42,355 nt of DNA, from positions 1-42,355 of the IMG/VR virus record IMGVR_UViG_3300046533_000104; one strand, written 5' to 3'. Shown here in pieces: positions 2,796 to 39,589 of this stretch (position 1 is the stretch's first letter; every line of letters begins with the position of its first letter). The stretch is from a virus. A program made the translations under genes and the position numbers. Below the pieces are notes generated by a model. That model had not been told where the DNA came from, searched no databases, and was given only the letters and a program-made list of their open reading frames with translations.

Positions 2796-3290
2796 CTAGT
2801 TTCCGAGTGCTCTGAACTGCTGATATGTAGGCCACACATAGGTACGGTTACTAATAGACTCAACTAGGTCCTCTTCCAACAATCCATACCTTTTAGCACA
2901 CTCAAGAGAATTGGCACTGATCTCTCCAGTTGCCATATCTTCGATCTGAAACCGAATATGATGCCGATACCGATACCTGAACTGACGGTTGTATTTGACA
3001 GCGAACCATCTAGGTCGCCATTCTAGATTGTCAACAGCATTGTTCCAACGATCACCATCCAAATTGATAGGAGTGTCATACGCATGATATGGTTGGGGGA
3101 TGAATGCCCTAGCTACAAGCAGAGGAACCGATCGCTTGAACTGCATCCCGCCATCCCATAGTCCAACGAAGACCACATCATACTGATTCATGTTTAGGGC
3201 CATGATTCGTCCTGAGACAACGTTTGCTACTTGCCCATAATTGCTTACTTCATAATTGGAGAACTCAGGAATAGGCCTCCATGTTTCCAT
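2796..3290 (-). CDS. NUMOD4/HNH-family protein with degenerate nuclease core
   Basis: 164 residues from ATG 3290, chosen because AAGGAG lies 5 nt upstream; a longer reading to 3395 has no ribosome site. The N-terminus WRPIPEFSNYEVSNYGQV is a NUMOD4 module, which binds DNA in homing-type endonucleases. The middle follows the HNH_3 layout (LVARAFIPQP, then INLDGDRWNNAVDNLEW), but the expected His before LVA and the His of VNHxDG are both absent. The C-terminal part SLECAKRYGLLEEDLVESIS resembles a NUMOD1/HTH segment. It may therefore bind DNA without cutting, or use other residues. It lies alone between two non-coding stretches. Confidence 0.65.
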   Translation of the reverse strand: METWRPIPEFSNYEVSNYGQVANVVSGRIMALNMNQYDVVFVGLWDGGMQFKRSVPLLVARAFIPQPYHAYDTPINLDGDRWNNAVDNLEWRPRWFAVKYNRQFRYRYRHHIRFQIEDMATGEISANSLECAKRYGLLEEDLVESISNRTYVWPTYQQFRALGN

Positions 3291-3542
3291 AACACTCCTT
3301 TTTAAACGGCACTTGTATAAAACACGGCCTTGTATGGGAAGAAAATTTTTGCCAAGAAAAATCGATTCGAAAACTTTTACAGGGACTACACTCAATATCT
3401 ACCACTACTGGATATTGAGATCTCCTGCGTAGGATAGTGTTTTAGAGCAGATATGGCAGGCAAGCTTTTCCCCACAAAGTAGGGCTTTTTCCCATTCTAG
3501 AGCCAAAAAGTCCTTAACCCATCTGCCAAAATCTGCCAACAT
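3291..3542. other. Intergenic region with 8-bp inverted repeat
   Basis: No gene seen. It holds a perfect inverted repeat TCAATATC/GATATTGA (3392-3399 and 3411-3418, 11-nt loop), two copies of CTTGTAT near 3315-3335, a tandem TTGGCAGAT (minus strand, about 3520-3540) just after the helicase stop, and several A/T runs. A sequence at about 3430-3455 weakly resembles the recurrent promoter element (AAAACAC followed by TAC-rich sequence). Probably the termination and start region between helicase and NUMOD4 genes. Confidence 0.4.
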
Positions 3543-4697
3543 TTAATTCCAGGCAAGCATTTTGAGGTCAAATTCGTTGAAATTGAAGTCCTTTTTCGCA
3601 CTCAAACTACGCCAGATTGCAGTGTCGATTTGTGTCTTCGAACGCAGCACGTGATAAAACAAATTCAAAAATGGCGTATTTATGCGGTCAATTCTCCCAT
3701 GTGCCTGCTCCCACTTCTTGTACGAACTGGTAAGCGAATAGAAGCACATAGCATCTGTTGAGATGCAATTCCAACCCTCAGATCCTGCTATGTACTGCAC
3801 CAGATATAGCCACTTCTCCGTATCTGGGATCTCCTCATGTTTGTGACCGTTCCACTCTCTCAGCTCTACAAGCCCGTTAAGCCCTCTTAGAGCCTCCAGT
3901 TCGTAGTTGAAGTTGTAGAACACTATCAACCTATTATGTGCCCTTAGAAGGCCCTCTACGGCCCTCACACGGCTTGTGTCGCCGTTGACCACCCGGCGCA
4001 TCAACGCAAAGAGTTCCCCGGCATCCTTGATGGGCTTGTTGAGCCATGGATTCCAGCGCTGCTTGACGACCGTCTCCCACATCTCGACGTTGTAATCCGT
4101 CCAGACGATCTTAGTGTGTCTAACCGTTTCCTTCTCGAACCTCATCCGAACGAGGACGTTGTTCCGGTGCTTCACCAGCTTGTTGACTGACAGATACCGA
4201 AGGATCTTGGGGTACTTTGCATAGGGGGCAAACACTACATGCTCTCGGAGGAACTCCGTCCTGTTTGGATAGAAACCATTTGCCACAAAGACAGGGATGT
4301 AGTCCATCCAAGTATCTCCAGGCGTCGCTGAAAGCATGATCCAGCGGTTCTTCCGAGCTATCTTCAGGAAGGCCTTGACCCATTTGCCTCTACCCACCAA
4401 TCTCTGCTCATCGAAGATGAAGAAGGCTCCGACCACCTTGTCGTACTTCTGGATGTTGTTCCACGAGTCGATGACCAACAGATCCGAATCCAGGTTCAGA
4501 GCCGATGCTTCACTGATCCAATCGAGAGTGTCCCTCTTTTTCGCCGTTGTGATCACGTAGATGTTGCGCTGTGATTCGTTCTGCTTGTAGTATGCGAGAG
4601 CGACTCGCGATTTTCCCGTACCGACTGCTCCCCACAAGATCGCTCCGTTGTGGAGTTCCCTCAGTGCTTTCTTCTGATGTTCGCCCAGCTCCTTCAA
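3543..4697 (-). CDS. SNF2/SF2-type DNA helicase
   Basis: 384 residues from TTG 4697; AAGGAGGTG sits 5 nt upstream, which settles the unusual start. Motif I is GAVGTGKS (residues 23-30), motif II reads FIFDEQ (DExx box, about 92-97), motif III is [10 protein letters not shown] (about 120), and motif VI is QAHGRIDR (about 345), all in the order of SNF2-like phage helicases. A nearby VRR-NUC-type nuclease gene is the usual neighbour of this family. Likely an ATP-driven DNA translocase in replication or recombination. Its first 188 nt are also read in another frame by the zinc-ribbon gene upstream. Confidence 0.85.
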
Positions 4698-5710: not shown

Positions 5711-6226
5711 TCACTCGTCTTCGCCATACCTCTCAACCATCGTCTCGGCGTACTTACGCTCGAGATAGTCCTCCTCGATGGTGACGAACATCGACTTGAC
5801 CATCGCCTTGATGCCGAACTTGTTGTTCATCTTCCACGCAAAGGGACGAACGATCAAGTCCACGTTCGTGATGTCAGCGAAGTCGAGCATCTCGACGTCA
5901 TCTTCGGTCAGATGGGTGCGCTTCTTGCTACCGATGCACACCACCAGAGGCGGACGCACAGGTCCGTTGCGACCCTGGTACTTCAGAAAGCACGGGAGGA
6001 AAGGTTTGGCGACCTCCCCCTCCGCTGCCTGCTCCGGACGGGGCTCGAGCATCTTGACGTTCCAGCCGTCAGCGTTCATGATCTCGGCCATCTCATCGCT
6101 CAGAAGGACACCGAAGTTCCGGTCACCCTCCTTGTTGAACTCAGTGGGCCTTCCGATGAAGTTGCGGAAGATGATCCTCACGCCCTCCATCACTACTGCT
6201 TCAGTAGGCGCCTTTGGAGCTTCCAT
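5711..6226 (-). CDS. Putative single-stranded DNA-binding protein
   Basis: 171 residues. The segment RIIFRNFIGRPTEFNKEGDRNFGVLLSDEMAE and the later VRPFAWKMNNKFGIKAMVKSMFVTIEEDYLERKY follow an actinophage family often listed as ssDNA-binding proteins; the beta-rich middle and acidic C-terminus (VERYGEDE) fit that idea. The start ATG overlaps the stop of the polymerase fusion (TAATG), so it is made together with the replicase. Assignment rests on family resemblance and context; no unequivocal OB-fold motif can be read by eye. Confidence 0.55.
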   Translation of the reverse strand: MEAPKAPTEAVVMEGVRIIFRNFIGRPTEFNKEGDRNFGVLLSDEMAEIMNADGWNVKMLEPRPEQAAEGEVAKPFLPCFLKYQGRNGPVRPPLVVCIGSKKRTHLTEDDVEMLDFADITNVDLIVRPFAWKMNNKFGIKAMVKSMFVTIEEDYLERKYAETMVERYGEDE

Positions 6227-9200
6227 TAGTTTACGAACTCCTCAAACGAGCCGAATCGCTCAATAGATTTGATTGCGTCTTCTTTCAACTTCTCGAAGTA
6301 CGACATGTCTATCTGGAGATCAGGTCGTTCCTTCGCCACTTCTGCTTCGATCCAGAGATGACCCTTCGTGCCTGTTACGGCGTAGTAGCGTTCGTCTTTG
6401 TATCGATAGAGAGTTCCGCCCCCCGTTGCCACAGGTACAAAGCGCCCAGTGCGCCCGAGATGGCGCATGTTCCGATAATCCAGATCTTCATGGTGCTCCT
6501 TGTCGAGGTACATTGTTCCCTGCGTGACATTTTTCGTCTCACAGAAATCGTCGAATGTTAGCTCCTCATGTGAGAAGAGCATCTTGTACACGTACGGATG
6601 CTGGTACTGTGAACCCACTACGGTCCAGTCGTTACCCTTACGTGCGATATACACTGCGTCGTTCACCAGGCAGAACTTGTCGTAAGTTGCCTCGTGCTCG
6701 AAGTCGTAGCCATGCAGCATTCCATCGGTCTTGATGTAGTCGATGATGTCTGCGTCTGCGTTTGGAATCTTGATCGAGTCCGTCTTGATGTGGGCTACGG
6801 TGTAACCCTTCTTCTGCAAGATGTTCTTCAGACCGATCATGTACAGCGCGCCGCGCTTTGCGACGATGTTGTCTACGTTACGGTTGTCATTGAACGGGTT
6901 CGAGAACTTCGCAGATGTGAGACCGTAGACGATGTTGATCGCTATCTTGAGAGCGTAAGCCAGCGACTCAGCACTACTGGGGTCATCCTCAGCAGACTCA
7001 AGAAACTGGGCGAGACGACCGTCAAAGAGGGTACGGGCTTTTGCGTAGTCCTTACGCTTAATTGCCATTCGTGCCTCAGTGAGACCCGCAAAACGTGCGG
7101 TGTACTCATCTCCGAAGAGGTTGAGAATCTCGATTGTCGTCGGATGCATAGACGCCACGTCCAGAAGGGCGACTTGTTCGTAGATGCCTGGTTCTGCGTA
7201 GACGTACCCGCCTTCTCCGGGATCTTCTCCAAGATATGAACTCTTTCCCATCTCGAATTTGTAGCCGGGGAACACCTCGGCCAGATTAGTGTAAACAAAT
7301 TGACGCTGCGGGTTCTTGTCCTTACCGAAGATGATCTCTGCGGTATGACGTTGAGTCGTGTCGTTGACTGTGAGTCCGCTCAGTTCAGCAAGAATCTGCC
7401 TAGCGACAAAGTCAGGCCAACGAGCTTCCAGAACGGCTTCTGTCGCGACGACATCGTTGACACAGTATTCCACAACACGGAGCCAATCTTTCTCATCAAC
7501 GGGCTCGTCCCAAGGTAGATCCAACTCCATGTGAGATATGCCGAGATCGATTTCGAACTTCTTGAGCCCTTGCTTCTTCGAGCTGAAGTCCCAGATATCG
7601 GTGTATGAGATGTTATACGCTGCTGCGAACGGGGCATTCGCATTCTTGTCGACGATCAGCTTCTGACTCAACTCGAAGAGCTGCTCATTGTTGTATCCCA
7701 TCGAAGCCGCATAGAGGATATGGTTGTCATAGCGCCGGTTATAGAACCCGGTGAGCTTCAACTTGAACAGAGCCTCGACTTCATGCGCCTTGGGATTGAT
7801 CATCTTGACGACGACCGGGTCTCCCCTGAACTTCCAGCAGACGACGAAGAGGTTCTTGTAGACCTCGACGTCGAACAGCACGATGCGATCATCCTCTACC
7901 TCGATGGCCGCATCAGATGCCACCTCTTCAGCCGAGGCGAACTTCATACCGAGGACCGTCTTGATGGACACCTTGCTCTGATTACTACTGTTGTTCGCAA
8001 ACGCCAGGATCTTGGGCCTTAGATCTGTGACGTCGTACTTCATGCCAGACTCGTAAGCATCCTCAAGGATCTGAGCGATGAAATCCACGGATGGCTTGGT
8101 GCCTGGATGGATCTCCTTCCTCAGGTTCCGCTGGATCAGCTCTCGCAGGCCTCGCTCGCTGGTGATTGTTTTGGCCTTGAGCATCTTCTCCTTCTGCTTC
8201 TTCAGAGGAAGTCCGGAATTGATGACTTCAATCGGAATACGATTGCACCAGGTGAGTCGTCGTCGAAGAGACGCATCTCCACTGAATACCTTGACCTCAA
8301 TTCCAGTGGCATAGTTCTGAGCCAAAGCTGAAACATCTCCGTCATAGGTGTAATGAAGATGTACTCCGTTACCTGACTGTGAGATCTCGGCGTAGGTTGG
8401 AGGCCAGCTGCTAGCTGCTTCCAGATTTCGTTCGAGTGCGGTGTGTCCATTTACTTCCTTCAGATCGAAGTCGATGACCACGAGATTTTTCGGCACCTTG
8501 AGGAAGTGCAGCTCTGAAGTGTCAATATCCTGCAGGGTGCTTTTGACGTTCACCCACTTCTTACCGGGCACTCCGTCCTTGTTCGCCAGCTGTGCTGGCT
8601 GATCCCCGAACGCCTCGTCCATCAGTGACACGGTCTCTTCCATGACCAGGGAGAAGGACCTACCCTCTTCCTTGACCACGGGGGTCTTGAACTTCTCGGC
8701 GTTGAATCCGGTATACAGGCTCCGAACATTCGCGCCGTCCAGCTCACCACGATCCTTGAAGTCCTCGAAGTAGTTCCTGAGTTCTTCTCGCATCTTGTAC
8801 TGCGGCATGGGTCGCTCAATCCCACTCTCGTCGCAATACTCCTTGTACATCGAATATGCTTGCTTCAAGGTGATCTTGTCCTGCCCCTTGAAGACGTCGT
8901 AGTACGCCTCGATGAAGTTGAAGAAGATGTCAGTCTGCAACATCATCTCCATCGGGCGGTAGCTGTTGTAGTAATTCTTGCCCATCGACAGATATGTCTC
9001 AAGGCAATGTTGAGCGATCGCACCCAATTCGAAATCTATTTGCTGAATCAGGGCGTTGTAATGTCGGATAGGGATTTTCACCCCACTGGGATGGATGTCA
9101 ATCAATCGGCGAATCAGTCCTGACTTCGCATCAGAGATCTTCACCGGTTGATTGGAACCCACGAACAACAGGGCTTCCACTCTTGCAGTGTAACTCGGCT

Positions 9201-9978
9201 TGTACTTCTCGTTCATCGTCATCTGCTCATGTGAGATGATCGAATTCAGCCGAGTATTATCCTCCAGCCTCGACAGATCGCCATCATGCTGAATGGCAAC
9301 CAGTGGATTGTGCTTGAAGGCCTCAGTGGCAAACGTGCCATTACTGCTTCCCAGCGCTTTCCCGTCAAATGTTGTCGTGTATCCCTCGAACAATCTCTCG
9401 AGGATGTTCAGGATCGTTGACTTCCCTGACCCTGCAGGACCGTAGAAGACCAAGAACTTCTGGATCTTCTTCGAATCTCCGGAAACGATAGATCCGATAG
9501 CCCACTCGATCTTTGCCCGCTCTTCCTCCGAATACAATGTGCCAACGAGTTCGTCCCACGCTGAAATATCTCCTTCTCCAAGGGAATAGCTCAGAGTATG
9601 ACTCGCGTAATCCGACTTCTTCATCGGCGTGTTCGCGAATATGATCTTTGAATCCAGCGGCCGACTGTTGTCGCTGATCTGCCCGATGAACTTTCTGAAC
9701 TGTGTCCACATCTGACTACCGAACGAACTCATGAACATGGGGAAATACTGCACCCCGGTCTCCGCCTTGAGTCTGTCCGCTTCGCGCTGCAGATCATCAT
9801 CCACAAGACGCTGTACATCATACTCGTCACGAGACCACAGGCCCCGCTCTTCATCCCAGATCGCGTAGAAAGTGCGTCCTTGGACCATCAGATCCTTTGA
9901 ACGTCCGATCTTGAAATCGGGATACAGCATGGTCTTGCCGTCCTTCGTTTCCTTAGTTCGGATCTGATAGAAGTCCAC
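6226..9978 (-). CDS. Helicase, AEP primase-like and family-B DNA polymerase in one chain
   Basis: 1250 residues from GTG 9978 (AAGGAGGTG upstream). Residues about 1-400 form a D5-like SF3 helicase: Walker A GPAGSGKS (180-187), then VAIQHDGDL, GSNQPVKISDAKSG and the Arg-finger region LIRRLID. Residues about 470-600 carry AEP primase hallmarks: VIDFD (502-505 region, DxD) and SGNGVHLH (535-542). Residues about 695-1250 are family-B polymerase-like: exonuclease FDVE (D703, E705), NRRYD and YCVND; motif A DVASMHP (940-946); motif B KIAINIVYG (1011-1019); motif C KTDS (1065-1068). The usual DTDS is KTDS here. A single product could therefore unwind, prime and copy DNA. Whether the AEP module is active is unproven because its third motif is uncertain. 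Confidence 0.85.
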   Translation of the reverse strand: MDFYQIRTKETKDGKTMLYPDFKIGRSKDLMVQGRTFYAIWDEERGLWSRDEYDVQRLVDDDLQREADRLKAETGVQYFPMFMSSFGSQMWTQFRKFIGQISDNSRPLDSKIIFANTPMKKSDYASHTLSYSLGEGDISAWDELVGTLYSEEERAKIEWAIGSIVSGDSKKIQKFLVFYGPAGSGKSTILNILERLFEGYTTTFDGKALGSSNGTFATEAFKHNPLVAIQHDGDLSRLEDNTRLNSIISHEQMTMNEKYKPSYTARVEALLFVGSNQPVKISDAKSGLIRRLIDIHPSGVKIPIRHYNALIQQIDFELGAIAQHCLETYLSMGKNYYNSYRPMEMMLQTDIFFNFIEAYYDVFKGQDKITLKQAYSMYKEYCDESGIERPMPQYKMREELRNYFEDFKDRGELDGANVRSLYTGFNAEKFKTPVVKEEGRSFSLVMEETVSLMDEAFGDQPAQLANKDGVPGKKWVNVKSTLQDIDTSELHFLKVPKNLVVIDFDLKEVNGHTALERNLEAASSWPPTYAEISQSGNGVHLHYTYDGDVSALAQNYATGIEVKVFSGDASLRRRLTWCNRIPIEVINSGLPLKKQKEKMLKAKTITSERGLRELIQRNLRKEIHPGTKPSVDFIAQILEDAYESGMKYDVTDLRPKILAFANNSSNQSKVSIKTVLGMKFASAEEVASDAAIEVEDDRIVLFDVEVYKNLFVVCWKFRGDPVVVKMINPKAHEVEALFKLKLTGFYNRRYDNHILYAASMGYNNEQLFELSQKLIVDKNANAPFAAAYNISYTDIWDFSSKKQGLKKFEIDLGISHMELDLPWDEPVDEKDWLRVVEYCVNDVVATEAVLEARWPDFVARQILAELSGLTVNDTTQRHTAEIIFGKDKNPQRQFVYTNLAEVFPGYKFEMGKSSYLGEDPGEGGYVYAEPGIYEQVALLDVASMHPTTIEILNLFGDEYTARFAGLTEARMAIKRKDYAKARTLFDGRLAQFLESAEDDPSSAESLAYALKIAINIVYGLTSAKFSNPFNDNRNVDNIVAKRGALYMIGLKNILQKKGYTVAHIKTDSIKIPNADADIIDYIKTDGMLHGYDFEHEATYDKFCLVNDAVYIARKGNDWTVVGSQYQHPYVYKMLFSHEELTFDDFCETKNVTQGTMYLDKEHHEDLDYRNMRHLGRTGRFVPVATGGGTLYRYKDERYYAVTGTKGHLWIEAEVAKERPDLQIDMSYFEKLKEDAIKSIERFGSFEEFVN

Positions 9979-9992
9979 TACACCTCCTTCCT

Positions 9993-10568: not shown

Positions 10569-11337
10569 CGTCAAACCGCTCTGCGCGTTTGCGTATCTTC
10601 TCCACCTGATAATACTGATGCTGCAGGAATGGGGTGACGTTGTCGACGTAATTCCCGTCAGCCCTGGAGATCTCGATGTCTGTCTTCGTCTCGGTGTTGC
10701 GCACCAGTACTACATGCGCATTACCTGAGCCGTGCCCAAACCTCTGCAGGTTGTTGATCCCCACCGTCTCGTCGATATTGTCGACTGGTTCATCTCGCTC
10801 GTCAGCGAGAATCTCCTCTTCGAAATACCAGGTGTAACAGACAGTAGTGTAGTCCTCGTCGTGCAACTCCCCGAACTCATCGAGGTGAATGACGAACGGA
10901 ACGTCCGGGTTCTGCTGCCGAGCCATAAGCTCAGCGGGCATGTTCCACTCATGCTCAGACGGGGGGTGCGATTCGAAGACCGTCTGAGATGCTTCTTCTC
11001 CGGGCTCCGGCATGTTGTGGTACTTGACCGACTCAGTCTCGGGAGGATCCTCTTCCCCACCGATCGTGTTCTCGGTCTTCTCGTATCCGAGGTACTCCAC
11101 CACTTCTTCAAGCGGAGCCTTCAGACGTGCCTCAGTCGCAGCCTTCGCTGCCCGGTAGTAATCCCGAGCCTCGTCAATCTCTTCCTGAGCGATCTTGTCG
11201 TACTTGGTCTCAAGGCGCTTCTTGGCGAAGAAATATCCTCCGACCAGACCCAGACCCAGACCACCGACAAACCCTGCCGCGATCCACTGATGCCCGACCA
11301 GAGTTTCGGCGACCTGTTCGATTACGGGTTCTGCCAT
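10549..11337 (-). CDS. Membrane-anchored protein with coiled coil (262 aa)
   Basis: ATG 11337 with GGAG 8 nt upstream. Residues about 16-37 (IAAGFVGGLGLGLVGGYFF) form one membrane span, followed by a charged helical segment (about 38-85) and an acidic, Pro-rich linker. The C-terminal half (VPFVIHLDEFGELHDEDYTTVCYTWY onward) is a globular domain typical of actinophage membrane proteins of unknown function. It overlaps the DUF6353-like gene upstream by 16 nt. Confidence 0.65.
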   Translation of the reverse strand: MAEPVIEQVAETLVGHQWIAAGFVGGLGLGLVGGYFFAKKRLETKYDKIAQEEIDEARDYYRAAKAATEARLKAPLEEVVEYLGYEKTENTIGGEEDPPETESVKYHNMPEPGEEASQTVFESHPPSEHEWNMPAELMARQQNPDVPFVIHLDEFGELHDEDYTTVCYTWYFEEEILADERDEPVDNIDETVGINNLQRFGHGSGNAHVVLVRNTETKTDIEISRADGNYVDNVTPFLQHQYYQVEKIRKRAERFDDADTAE

Positions 11338-12236
11338 CTCAGTGGCTCCTTGTCACCCTCGATGCGGTTGTGAATCGGGCCGTCGACGTTGAAGTCGAGG
11401 AGGATGGCACCTTCGTGACCGTTCATGAAGTCACGGACAGTCTGATCGTCGCGGAAGAGTCCGAAGTCGATGAACCCGTCTCCGCCCCCATCGCGCAGCC
11501 AGCCCACGACGGCTCCCGCTTCGGTACGCGGGATATCGAACATGTCATAGACCTCATTGAGGAACACGTGTCCTCGGAGCGTCAGCAGGTCATTTGCGTA
11601 GCGCTGCTGAGAGCGCACGGTGACCTGATTCACTTCCCAGTCCTTGGACCACAGGCACGAGGTCGGGTCGAAGAACTTCGCGTAACCGGACGGCTCACCC
11701 ATGGCGACACGCTTGACCGTCTTCTTGCGCCCCGTCTCGGGGTTGAGGATCTCGACCGGCTTCACGCCGTAGCGCATCTCACGGTCGGTCTCTTCGCCGA
11801 AAGCGTCACGCACACGGCTGCGGTACTGATTGAACGCCGAATCGATCGCCGTATACGCAGCGGTCAGTGCGAAGTTGCGCTCCATCAGAATATGATGCGA
11901 CTGCGTCAGGCAGGCAATGCCGATGCCACCCAGGATGATGGCCGGAGCGTACTGCTTGGTGATACGAAGCGCTGTCCGGCTGTAGACGATCAGCGTGTCC
12001 TTCCGAGCGTCTTCCTCGGTGTACTCCTCAATGACCTCAGCCGCATGGATCTTCTCCATGTCAGCCTTACCCGTATCGAGAAGCTCTTCGACCTTCAGCG
12101 TGGCGTGGCACGCGAGGACGGTGCTGCCGATCATGGAGACCACACCAGTTCCGAACAGGATCTTTGGTGCATTCTCCTGGAAGAACAGGGACTTTGCCCC
12201 CATCACTCCCTTGATTCCTTCAGAAAGGAATGTCAT
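11322..12236 (-). CDS. DUF6353-like membrane protein, paralogue A (304 aa)
   Basis: N-terminal hydrophobic helix (KILFGTGVVSMIGSTVLACHA, around residues 25-45), a charged helix, a second hydrophobic helix (APAIILGGIGIACLTQSHHI, about 95-115), then AALxAAYTAID-type helix and a soluble C-terminal domain rich in G/D. The same layout and many positions recur in the 269-residue protein at 14215-15024. The family is common in actinophages; the molecular role is unknown. Starts at ATG 12236 and overlaps the 56-residue gene. Confidence 0.7.
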   Translation of the reverse strand: MTFLSEGIKGVMGAKSLFFQENAPKILFGTGVVSMIGSTVLACHATLKVEELLDTGKADMEKIHAAEVIEEYTEEDARKDTLIVYSRTALRITKQYAPAIILGGIGIACLTQSHHILMERNFALTAAYTAIDSAFNQYRSRVRDAFGEETDREMRYGVKPVEILNPETGRKKTVKRVAMGEPSGYAKFFDPTSCLWSKDWEVNQVTVRSQQRYANDLLTLRGHVFLNEVYDMFDIPRTEAGAVVGWLRDGGGDGFIDFGLFRDDQTVRDFMNGHEGAILLDFNVDGPIHNRIEGDKEPLRWQNP

Positions 12237-14078: not shown

Positions 14079-14215
14079 TTCTTGTTTTCCTCCTCGTCGC
14101 GTTCCTTGATTTTGGCCAGAAGGGCCTCAAGGCTCTTGTTTGTATCGGCAAGGGTCAGACCCAACTTGGTCATAACCCTCACCAACTCCTGAATATCCCT
14201 ACGCTGCGGTTCCAC
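14075..14215 (-). CDS. Small coiled-coil protein (46 aa)
   Basis: GTG 14215 shares a base with the TAG stop of the DUF6353-like gene (TAGTG). VEPQRRDIQELVRVMTKLGL then TLADTNKSLEALLAKIKERD is a long amphipathic helix with a charged tail. Function unknown; an oligomerising helper is plausible. Confidence 0.55.
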   Translation of the reverse strand: MEPQRRDIQELVRVMTKLGLTLADTNKSLEALLAKIKERDEEENKK

Positions 14216-15024
14216 TAGTACACGTGCTTTCCGTAATCCGGGACTGGCGGGAAGTGATACTCCATCGCCACACACGGGCGGTTGTCGCTAGACAGGTGTG
14301 ATGAGAACTTGATCTCGAGACGGTTGTCGAGGTTGAACCCAAGCACATCCGACATGCCGTTCGGCGGTAGGCCCAGCTCGTCGTAGAACGCACTCAGGCT
14401 GGCGTAGTTGCAGTTGACGATCTCGAAGTTGATCTTGTTCTCGGCCTGCTTGATCGCTTCGACACTGCTCATGAAATATCGCCCGGAATACACGTCGTAG
14501 CAGAGCACCTCACCGTTGCCGATGATGATGATTTCGCTCGACTCGACCGGATGCTCAGCAAGTTTCTTTGCGACGATCTCATCGCGGATGGCCTGCTCTT
14601 TGCCCGGCCCGAGCTTCTCGACGACCTTCTCCTTGTACTCCTGCAAGGCTTTGTCGGATATGGTGTAGGCAGCGGCCAGCGCAGCGATCTCTTTCGAGGC
14701 CAGACGATTGGCCAGGACGATCGCAAGGATCGTGGTAGTGCCCATGATGATCGGTGGGATGAACTCGCGCCACGTAAGCTTGAGTTTCTCCTCACGAGTG
14801 AGGGGCTCCATCTTGTCGAAAGCTTTGTCACCAAACTCAGCCTTGACCCGGATGGCACGCTCAAGGTGCGCATTGTCGATCAGCTCATCCGCCCTGAGAA
14901 CGGCCTTGCCTGTCAGAACCGAGGTCGTGATAACCCCCGCCACACCAACGCCCGTGAGGATGCTAGCGCTGTTGTCGTTCAGGAAATATGACGCTTTGCC
15001 GAACAGTTCACCCAGTGAATTCAC
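14215..15024 (-). CDS. DUF6353-like membrane protein, paralogue B (269 aa)
   Basis: Starts at GTG 15024. Two hydrophobic helices (SILTGVGVAGVITTSVLTG around residues 20-38 and FIPPIIMGTTTILAIVLANR about 90-109) flank a charged helix, followed by ALAAAYTISDKALQEYKEKV and a soluble domain ending in an acidic-aromatic segment. It matches paralogue A (11322-12236) in layout and in the AAYTxxDxAxxxYxxxV helix. Overlaps the 53-residue membrane protein by 17 nt. Role unknown. Confidence 0.7.
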   Translation of the reverse strand: MNSLGELFGKASYFLNDNSASILTGVGVAGVITTSVLTGKAVLRADELIDNAHLERAIRVKAEFGDKAFDKMEPLTREEKLKLTWREFIPPIIMGTTTILAIVLANRLASKEIAALAAAYTISDKALQEYKEKVVEKLGPGKEQAIRDEIVAKKLAEHPVESSEIIIIGNGEVLCYDVYSGRYFMSSVEAIKQAENKINFEIVNCNYASLSAFYDELGLPPNGMSDVLGFNLDNRLEIKFSSHLSSDNRPCVAMEYHFPPVPDYGKHVY

Positions 15025-32782: not shown

Positions 32783-34780
32783 TTAGGCCGAGTTCTTGAA
32801 AGTCCACTCGTCGTTGACGTTGTCCGCGAAGTAGTACGCGGGCGTGGTCGGGACGGCGTAGACCCGCAGCGACTGACCCGAGGCAAGCGCGATCGGGGTG
32901 GCCGTATCCATCACCGCGTCGGTGTCACCGCGATGGTACGTGACGCCCGTGACGGTCGGGACCGTGATGTCGTTGTTCGCGAACGCGGGCTTCGTCGGCT
33001 TGACGAGCACGGAGTTCATGGCGACCTTCCGGACCACGAGAGCGGAACGGATCTTCGTGAGCGCGCCGGAGAGGCGGGTCTCCAGCAGGTACTTGTACTG
33101 GTTGTAGTCGATGTCGAAGTCGTCGAAGAACGCGACGTCGCCACCCTTGTCGGCGCCGAGAGTGTAGTCCCTCAGGTTGACGATGATCCCGACGATCTCG
33201 GGCTCGGACTCCATGACTTCGACCTCGACGATGCCTGCGACGCCCATCGCGGAGGCCAGTTCGGCCTTGTTGTTCCACAGGCGACGGCCCATGCCATCCT
33301 TCGCGAGGATGAGTTCGGTGTAGACCGCCAGCGTCGTGTAGAACGTCGGCGAACCCGAGCCCTTGTAGAGGCCCATGGACCGGATGATGGCCTCGACGAT
33401 CTCCTCGGGGGAGGAGTCGGCGTCATCGATGTTGACGTACACCGAACCGGCGTAGAGGTCGTGATCGTTGGCGATCGAGCGGATGCCAGCGCCTTCGACG
33501 GCACCGATCGGATCCTTGATCTTGTCCTCGTCGTCCACTTCGCGACCGTCACCGATCAGAACCGCGCGCGCGAGTTCCTCATCGAGCATGACCCGCATCT
33601 CGCCCTTGAGCCAGGCGACGACGTCGAAGTCGGTGATGTCGATGATGTCGTCACGGTCCAGCTTCTGCTTCTTGTAGACCGTGGAGGGCGTCGTCACCCT
33701 CTTGGAGACGCCGAACCACTCTTCCTTCTTGAAGTTGCCCTTGATGTAGCCCTTGGCACGGGCTTCGTCGAAGGTGAGGTCGGCGACGAGGGACTTGATT
33801 CGGGAGAACGGGGAGTGCTTGGTCCCGTTGATGACTCCGGCGACCCACTCGGTCCGGCGCTTGTCGAACTCGGGGGTGGCGTCGACTGCGCGGGCGTCGG
33901 GAAACAGGACCTCGATGTTCTCGATGCCGTGCTTTAGCGCGAAGGCCTCAACTGCGCCCTTGAGCGAGCCGTTCTTCTTGGCGTCCTCGACGATTCCCGC
34001 GATCTCGTCGTGCGAGAGAACGCGACTGCCGGGACCGTCCTTCTTGCCTTCTTTCTGCTGCTCGAAGACGTTGCGAGACATCCAGATTCCTTCCTTCTTC
34101 TCAGACTTGTCGGAATGCTGTGCGGTACCCGCCTCTTCGAGCGCGGCGCCGACCATGTAATGCACGACAGCCTGCTCTTCCTCAGACATGGCGTCGTAGA
34201 CTTCTTGGACGGTCGGGCCGTCCCCTTCCTTCGTGTCCTTCTTGGCTGCCGGATCCTCAGCGTGCTTGAGCACGTCGTCGGTGTAGACGATGACCTCATC
34301 GGACAACGTGACGACTTCGCCATCACTGTGAGCGACGGAGACGTTGTCGATAAAGGCGCCCGGATTGGCGCCCGCCATGACCAGGCTGACCTCGCGGATC
34401 ATGCCATGCAGAACGTTCGAAGCCTTCTCGACCAGCTGATTGGCGTAGATCGAGAGGTGCTTGATGTCTTCGTGCTGCACCAGCGTCTTGGCGTTCGTGC
34501 CTTGCGGGGCGTCGTTGAAGTACCCGTAGCAGTAAACGCCATCGTCGCGATTCTCGAGCACCGCGTGGCCGAGGACGTTCGACGGTTCACTATGACCATG
34601 TGACCAGACCAGCGGAACGGTCATCTTGTCTTGATGCTTGAACGCATCCTTCATGATTGTCCGGCCATCCGAGCACTTCAGGCCAGCCTTCGTGGCATAG
34701 CCACTGAAATCGGGCTCGCGATCGTGCATGAGGCTGCCACCGAGCGTAACGCTCAAGTCGGGCTTAGCCTTCGCTCCCAT
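32783..34780 (-). CDS. Protease-scaffold-major capsid polyprotein with Ig-like tail
   Basis: 665 residues, ATG 34780. Residues about 1-150 are an S78-type prohead protease (VPLVWSHGHSEPSNVLGHA, probable His61; KHLSIYAN, probable Ser110; MIREVSLVMAGANPGAFIDN). A charged linker (about 165-235, E/D/K/Q) looks like scaffold. Residues about 240-600 are an HK97-like capsid domain (RIKSLVADLTFDEARAKGYI, YVNIDDADSSPEEIVEAIIR, TLAVYTELILAKDGMGRRLW). The last about 60 residues form an Ig-like module as in the major tail protein. An internal ATG at 34081 (residue 234, MSRNVF) has AAGGAAGGAATC upstream and could give capsid alone. Confidence 0.88.
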   Translation of the reverse strand: MGAKAKPDLSVTLGGSLMHDREPDFSGYATKAGLKCSDGRTIMKDAFKHQDKMTVPLVWSHGHSEPSNVLGHAVLENRDDGVYCYGYFNDAPQGTNAKTLVQHEDIKHLSIYANQLVEKASNVLHGMIREVSLVMAGANPGAFIDNVSVAHSDGEVVTLSDEVIVYTDDVLKHAEDPAAKKDTKEGDGPTVQEVYDAMSEEEQAVVHYMVGAALEEAGTAQHSDKSEKKEGIWMSRNVFEQQKEGKKDGPGSRVLSHDEIAGIVEDAKKNGSLKGAVEAFALKHGIENIEVLFPDARAVDATPEFDKRRTEWVAGVINGTKHSPFSRIKSLVADLTFDEARAKGYIKGNFKKEEWFGVSKRVTTPSTVYKKQKLDRDDIIDITDFDVVAWLKGEMRVMLDEELARAVLIGDGREVDDEDKIKDPIGAVEGAGIRSIANDHDLYAGSVYVNIDDADSSPEEIVEAIIRSMGLYKGSGSPTFYTTLAVYTELILAKDGMGRRLWNNKAELASAMGVAGIVEVEVMESEPEIVGIIVNLRDYTLGADKGGDVAFFDDFDIDYNQYKYLLETRLSGALTKIRSALVVRKVAMNSVLVKPTKPAFANNDITVPTVTGVTYHRGDTDAVMDTATPIALASGQSLRVYAVPTTPAYYFADNVNDEWTFKNSA

Positions 34781-38620: not shown

Positions 38621-39589
38621 CTAAACTGCTGCGACAGCGGCAGCCTTAGCGGCCGTCTTGGCCATGTCTGCAGCCATCCATGAACCGATCTTCTTGCTTC
38701 CGTTCTTCTTCAACTCGTCCTCGGCCCACTTTCGACCGCTGGCCTTAGTCTTACTTCCAGACAGACGAAGGACGTTCTGCTCAAGATTCAGTCGGTTCAT
38801 CATCGTCTGAAGTTCAGCATTACTAAGAGCATTCGGTCCGCTCTTTTTGAGCGTCTGCTGCATAACTCGAACGTCAATGGCTTCTTTGACAGCAGGCTGA
38901 GCCCGTCCGCCACGAGTAGCCACCTTCGTCTTCATGTGCTTGCGCTGCTTGATCTTCCTGACGTGCGCCTCAGTGGTTGAACTCGAGCTGGCATCCTTCC
39001 GGACACCCCACTTCATCCCCTTGGTACCGTAGTGAGCAAGGGCGTTCGCAACGGCAGTCTTACCGTCTTCTACTACACTCATACTCACCTCCATGTCCCA
39101 GTCATAGGACTTCAGGGGAATCTCGATGCCCTCGTAGTCGCCGAACCAGACAGCGATCTTGTCAAAATTGACCCCGTAGAACTGGGGGTAATCGCGCTTG
39201 TCTTCCTTGGCCGGTGTCTCGGGATAGCCGAGAGTAAGGTGAGGGTGCCACTCGGGGAATTGCTCGACCGAATCATACGCCGTGCGGATGTTGTCATCCT
39301 TGAGCAAATATGAACGGAAGTTCTCGATGTCCTGAGTCCAGCGCTTGGAGAAGAAAAGCACATCGGCTTCATCTTCGCCCAGCGTTCCTCGACGATCCAC
39401 ATCCATGTAGAATCGCTTGAGCGTGACGCTTGCTGCGTGCGCGACGAACTCGGTGATGTCCTGCAGATTCGCGACGTTCTTGGCTTCGCCGAGGAACAAA
39501 ATCGTCATGTGTGGGACTTTTTCGCTGGAGACCTTCCAGACATAATCTTCCTGAGATGGGATGGCAACGATGACGACGTTTTCAGCCAT
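38621..39589 (-). CDS. 2H phosphoesterase fused to a GTKGMKWGVRK peptide and helical tail
   Basis: 322 residues. N-terminal 2H phosphoesterase: KVPHMTILFLG (H27, T29) and WHPHLTLGYP (H115 or H117, T119), the paired HxT/S motifs of RNA 2',3'-cyclic phosphodiesterases. Residues 186-198 are HYGTKGMKWGVRK, followed by a basic, helical C-terminus ending AAKAAAVAAV. This family includes enzymes that open cyclic nucleotides or act on 2'-5' oligoadenylate. The tag and the position beside terminase suggest delivery with the virion. Start ATG 39589. Confidence 0.75.
   Translation of the reverse strand: MAENVVIVAIPSQEDYVWKVSSEKVPHMTILFLGEAKNVANLQDITEFVAHAASVTLKRFYMDVDRRGTLGEDEADVLFFSKRWTQDIENFRSYLLKDDNIRTAYDSVEQFPEWHPHLTLGYPETPAKEDKRDYPQFYGVNFDKIAVWFGDYEGIEIPLKSYDWDMEVSMSVVEDGKTAVANALAHYGTKGMKWGVRKDASSSSTTEAHVRKIKQRKHMKTKVATRGGRAQPAVKEAIDVRVMQQTLKKSGPNALSNAELQTMMNRLNLEQNVLRLSGSKTKASGRKWAEDELKKNGSKKIGSWMAADMAKTAAKAAAVAAV

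Follow-up and report, generated by a model that had tools for sequence, protein, structure and literature searches.

Can a single phage protein open, prime and copy DNA? The question is raised by the virus record IMGVR_UViG_3300046533_000104, all 42,355 bases of which will be called the window, and specifically by an open reading frame (ORF) of 1250 residues at positions 6226 to 9978. A sequence-only reading of this DNA described the frame correctly, though without a strand (it lies on the minus strand), as a fusion of helicase, primase-like and family-B polymerase modules, and regarded so complete a replisome in one protein as unusual. That last judgment must be given up, since the fusion defines an established family, known as phrog_4210 in PHROG, as HelPrimPolB (PMC7544198) and by its member GP55 (PMC12205980), and found in hundreds of phage records. 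I conclude with high confidence that the window protein serves a tailed phage as its replicase and belongs to the HelPrimPolB/GP55 family. The architecture, the family name and the activities are already in print, and the window protein is a further member of a characterised family.

Domain order and kinship to GP55

The window protein matches phrog_4210 over its full length (1915 bits, far beyond chance). Along the chain follow, in order, a superfamily 3 (SF3) helicase of the D5 type, an archaeo-eukaryotic primase (AEP) core, an alpha-helical domain, an exonuclease and a family-B palm. The SF3 helicase is therefore N-terminal to the family-B polymerase (PolB) in the same chain, and the PolB is one with an exonuclease. 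The sequence-only reading had the helicase, the AEP and the PolB with its exonuclease in their proper order and their catalytic residues, which are indeed conserved, but it overlooked the helical domain (about residues 601-685) between AEP and exonuclease. The motifs that it quoted lie where it placed them: VIDFD with D503 and D505, SGNGVHLH at residues 535-542, D940 in motif A and D1067 in motif C.

Purified in 2025, GP55 of lactococcal phage 1706 proved to be a polymerase, a helicase, an RNA primase and a 3'-5' exonuclease at once (PMC12205980). It needs no added primer to copy single-stranded M13 DNA, occurs mostly as a dimer, makes its RNA primers with its PriS-like domain, as judged from mutants, and has a primase and a polymerase that are able to act in trans (PMC12205980). 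It was the only member of the family for which a literature search found biochemistry. GP55 also matches phrog_4210 over its length (1799 bits) and is homologous to the window protein from end to end, with identities of 40% overall, 31% in the helicase, 52% in the AEP core, 41% in the helical domain and 46% in the polymerase. The kinship is seen directly at seven positions where mutations in GP55 indicate a need for the residue in helicase, primase, exonuclease or polymerase function (PMC12205980). GP55 K189, D509, Y655, F667, D712, E714 and D949 correspond to K186, D505, Y648, F660, D703, E705 and D940 of the window protein, identical in all seven cases. Conservation was counted over 47 aligned sequences, GP55 included (44 after those at least 95% identical are dropped), and six of the seven positions show no variation, the remaining one (Y648) having Y in 45 sequences and F in two.

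By analogy with GP55, the only protein of the two for which the four activities have been demonstrated (by others), the window protein may well possess the same activities, form a dimer and couple its modules. The SF3 helicase would open the duplex. Short RNA primers would come from the AEP core together with the helical domain after it, to be extended by the family-B polymerase, which would proofread with its own exonuclease. The following gene, which overlaps that of the replicase, codes for a single-stranded DNA (ssDNA)-binding protein that probably assists.

The modules in sequence and model

AlphaFold2 models of the window protein were made as halves, residues 1-690 and residues 440-1250, with mean predicted local distance difference test scores of 82.0 and 84.9, respectively. 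Both were used in the structure comparison, and the AEP segment lies within each.

The helicase is recognized by Pfam as DUF5906 (8.8e-13), with a weak match to Pox_D5 below the cut-off. The best structural match to the N-terminal half is the primase-helicase of SaPI5 (Z 21.1 over 375 residues, root-mean-square deviation (rmsd) 4.4), followed by poxvirus D5/E5, the helicase part of the African swine fever virus PrimPol and the C-terminal region of NrS-1. The Walker A lysine, the sensor-1 asparagine and the two arginines at 290 and 291 are invariant in all 47 sequences. The residue after the lysine is serine (GKS, the canonical form) in 43 sequences, that of the window among them, and glycine (GKG) in four: GP55, a near copy of it in CHPC971, P118 and Arthrobacter phage Heisenberger (loci L040, L045, L051 and L052). 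GKG is a normal form of the P-loop in some other P-loop enzymes, such as adenylate kinase.

The AEP core contains the motifs DxD, SGxGxHLH and GIEVKV, which are invariant or nearly so in the alignment. In the model of residues 1-690 its segment runs through a strand (499-504), a helix (514-522) and three further strands (529-532, 539-545 and 560-564), and this strand-helix-strand succession is the one expected of an AEP core. The sequence-only reading had left the fold of this middle part to modelling, and the sequence together with the predicted order of secondary structure in this model favors an AEP in the same chain as the PolB. The helical domain that follows, with Y648 and F660 in the places of GP55 Y655 and F667, consists in the model of four helices (608-619, 631-644, 651-662 and 668-676). 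In GP55 this position after the AEP core is taken by a new helical domain, called aHD, that is essential for priming (PMC12205980).

The exonuclease residues D703, E705, D751, Y838 and D842 are each identical in all 47 sequences. The C-terminal half model finds archaeal PolBs by Foldseek (best E 1.0e-16) and aligns to family-B polymerases with Z up to 16.0 over 446 residues (rmsd 6.4). Canonical PolBs usually have an aspartate as the first acidic residue of motif C and a lysine in KxY. The window protein has K1065 at the former place and D1107 at the latter, where its sequence reads NDAVY. An obligatory exchange of charge between the two positions was considered and rejected: K1065 is found in 47 of 47 sequences, yet the D1107 column has D in 41 and K in six. 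The K forms, GP55 among them, are scattered in a quick tree (L021, L022, L048 and the GP55 branch L040/L051/L052).

Unwinding by GP55, a GKG enzyme, was measured to depend on UTP or dTTP (PMC12205980). Since most members, like the window protein, have GKS, this dependence is perhaps not a property of the whole family; to judge from the sequences, GKG and the choice of nucleotide may be tied. A literature search found no report on whether members of the GKS type unwind with ATP. A tentative proposal, which I consider rather less probable than its opposite, is that GP55, with its GKG P-loop and a helicase 31% identical to that of the window protein, is atypical, that most members, including that of the window, possess an ordinary ATP-using or broader helicase, UTP/dTTP dependence being the trait of a side branch, and that K1065 and D1107 may have exchanged the charges of the Asp and Lys normally found there and so left the palm functional.

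Spread of the family

A tblastn search with the window protein matched 364 of 50,697 phage records, and in 252 of these a single place accounts for 80% or more of the query. The hosts of the carrier phages belong to Gordonia, Rhodococcus, Arthrobacter, Streptomyces, Curtobacterium and Lactococcus. Among the matches listed, most are annotated as 'DNA primase/polymerase', and those in phages of Enterococcus and Listeria are partial, covering the polymerase only. In bacterial genomes (genome_contigs), 74 stretches fit a peptide pattern and none encoded a relative; the search was weak, having drawn its patterns solely from the window protein.

Streptomyces phages Scarif and pSt2402 were considered as possible cases of a split replicase and rejected, because the full-length gene is intact in both and the other piece belongs to a small helicase-like ORF of its own. 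This ORF (L041 1983-2426 in Scarif, L042 1983-2438 in pSt2402) encodes 147-151 residues with a Walker A motif, is annotated as 'DNA polymerase' and precedes the intact replicase by four genes. It resembles residues 140-329 of the replicase helicase at 29% identity, in shortened form, and may be a partial copy of it that has decayed or taken on another role.

Alternative explanations

Several results weigh against the interpretation of the window protein as a replicase of the GP55 type. Its identity to GP55 is just 40% overall and lowest in the helicase. The Prim-Pol family (PF09250) matches it at 1.8e-4 and 22.4 bits, 0.4 bits short of the cut-off of 22.8, and reaches E<=0.01 in only 14 of the 47 members. 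A profile of the AEP segment compared with PDB sequences found no AEP, the single match (E 0.33) being unrelated, and one locus of the family is broken. The structure-comparison rows for the AEP segment also contain no AEP entry, but this absence carries no weight, because matches to the helicase and polymerase modules take up the lists. A search for viral relatives of the Eggerthella phage primase-helicase, intended as a comparison set for the AEP, found none. The weak Pfam score could be taken to mean that the AEP in the middle of the chain has degenerated and lost its priming function, so that the phage relies on a host primase. This is very improbable, given that the DxD aspartates, H540 (motif II), E561, K563, R572 and R573 are kept in 47 of 47 sequences, and that the AEP is the part of the protein nearest to GP55, whose PriS-like domain primes according to mutant data (PMC12205980). 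Equally little probability attaches to a polymerase module that is dead or specialised, a doubt that the sequence-only reading had raised because motif C reads KTDS rather than DTDS. Two aspartates at motif C are indeed found in most family-B enzymes (PMC7544198). KTDS is no sign of a dead enzyme, however, because it is invariant in all 47 sequences, including that of GP55, which polymerises DNA in vitro (PMC12205980). The first aspartate is also lacking in primer-independent PolBs that are active (PMC7544198) and in the stand-alone sister PolBs of phrog_1252, with NTDG in L054, L055 and L056 and NTDC in L053. Because these four related polymerases stand alone, loss of the first aspartate extends beyond the HelPrimPolB/GP55 family.

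It might also be supposed that the chain is cleaved or made as separate pieces and is therefore no single working unit, as the ability of GP55 primase and polymerase to work in trans (PMC12205980) would allow. Of the 37 viral loci found by sequence, 30 have a complete frame, two have a long frame cut by the contig edge, four are short edge pieces and one is broken. The broken locus (L024 2779-6467), which speaks for the supposition, is interrupted by several stops and shifts of frame in its helicase half, while its polymerase half is intact, the result of either sequencing error or decay. Against the supposition stand the single frames of the 30 complete and two edge-cut loci and of 14 of 14 aligned phage-record homologues, and the purification of GP55 as a whole protein (PMC12205980). 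I regard a divided chain as most unlikely.

Features of the locus and its surroundings

The coordinates of the replicase gene, its modules and its neighbor are collected in Table 1. The replicase stop codon overlaps the ATG of the ssDNA-binding protein gene, as read at the junction. Among the 25 window ORFs scanned against PHROGs, none is a second primase or polymerase. One stretch (3543-4697) matches the DNA helicase family phrog_62.

Table 1. Positions in the window of the replicase gene, its modules and motifs, and the adjoining gene.
Feature	Positions	Strand	Description
ssDNA-binding protein gene	5711..6226	minus	PF24083 1.7e-50; phrog_4787 'single strand annealing protein'
HelPrimPolB-type replicase ORF	6226..9978	minus	1250 residues, GTG start, uninterrupted frame; phrog_4210 at residues 1-1249
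Family-B palm/fingers/thumb	6229..7281	minus	about residues 900-1250; motif A D940, motif B K1011-N1015-Y1018-G1019
Motif C KTDS	6775..6786	minus	residues 1065-1068 (K1065-T-D1067-S); invariant, 47/47
3'-5' exonuclease	7399..7893	minus	about residues 696-860; phrog_1252 match at 689-891
Alpha-helical domain (equivalent of that in GP55)	7924..8178	minus	about residues 601-685; Y648, F660
AEP (PriS-like) core	8179..8613	minus	about residues 456-600; Prim-Pol PF09250, motifs, GP55 identity
AEP DxD, D503-F-D505	8464..8472	minus	D505 = GP55 D509
N-terminal extension and SF3/D5 helicase	8689..9978	minus	about residues 1-430; DUF5906, D5-type primase-helicase PHROGs, model matches
Walker A GPAGSGKS	9418..9441	minus	residues 180-187
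Ribosome-binding site GAAGGAGGTGTA	9979..9990	minus	abuts the GTG start on its upstream side; strong; GGAGG a few bases before the GTG

Upstream of the replicase lie two copies of family phrog_2152 (11322-12236 and 14215-15024, minus strand), the first of which matches DUF6353; in some cultured relatives the second gene upstream of the replicase is annotated 'membrane protein'. On its other side, a homing-endonuclease-like ORF of the NUMOD4/HNH type (2796-3395, minus) stands between an exonuclease ORF (1905-2462) and the helicase-like ORF already mentioned. Farther away, one ORF of 665 residues (32783-34780, minus) joins a prohead protease (S78) to a major-capsid-like domain (PF04586, PF05065; phrog_3270), and another (38621-39589, minus), adjoining the terminase gene, combines a 2'-5' RNA ligase/LigT-like part with a short DUF7211 stretch.

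Comparison with known systems

The value of the window protein is as a second, divergent member of the family, 40% identical to GP55 and with a canonical P-loop, by which family traits may be sorted from branch traits, above all UTP/dTTP-driven unwinding. Replicases that consist of a single protein also have a practical interest, for amplifying DNA without primers.

The name HelPrimPolB was given in 2020 in PMC7544198, which credits the architecture to a study of 2016 and describes motif C and KxY of the group as profoundly different. The window protein resembles the group so described in that its SF3 helicase and PrimPol precede PolB in one fused chain, and its KTDS and NDAVY may correspond to the group's divergent motif C and KxY; no difference was found in the comparison with that description. 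The 'DNA primase/polymerase' proteins of Gordonia, Rhodococcus, Arthrobacter and Streptomyces phages (for example, Pherobrine and ReqiPoco6 gp072) are colinear with it over the whole length and up to 62% identical (tblastn), differing by sequence divergence only.

The stand-alone PolBs of phrog_1252 (Listeria phage P40 gp31, Eggerthella phage EL753P1) have a related exonuclease-palm module (hhalign probability 99.9) and share the lack of the first aspartate in motif C, with NTDG or NTDC instead of KTDS. Unlike the window protein, they are unfused, the primase-helicase being the product of a neighboring gene. In L056 (1510-5869) and L054 (2963-6889) the PolB gene lies beside that gene, which is upstream in one phage and downstream in the other.

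GP55 remains the system closest to hand. It has in common with the window protein the domain order, homology over the full length, the same PHROG, the seven mapped functional residues and KTDS; it differs in its P-loop (GKG rather than GKS), in the lysine of its KxY region where the window protein has D1107, in its sequence as a whole (40% identity), and in its Lactococcus host.

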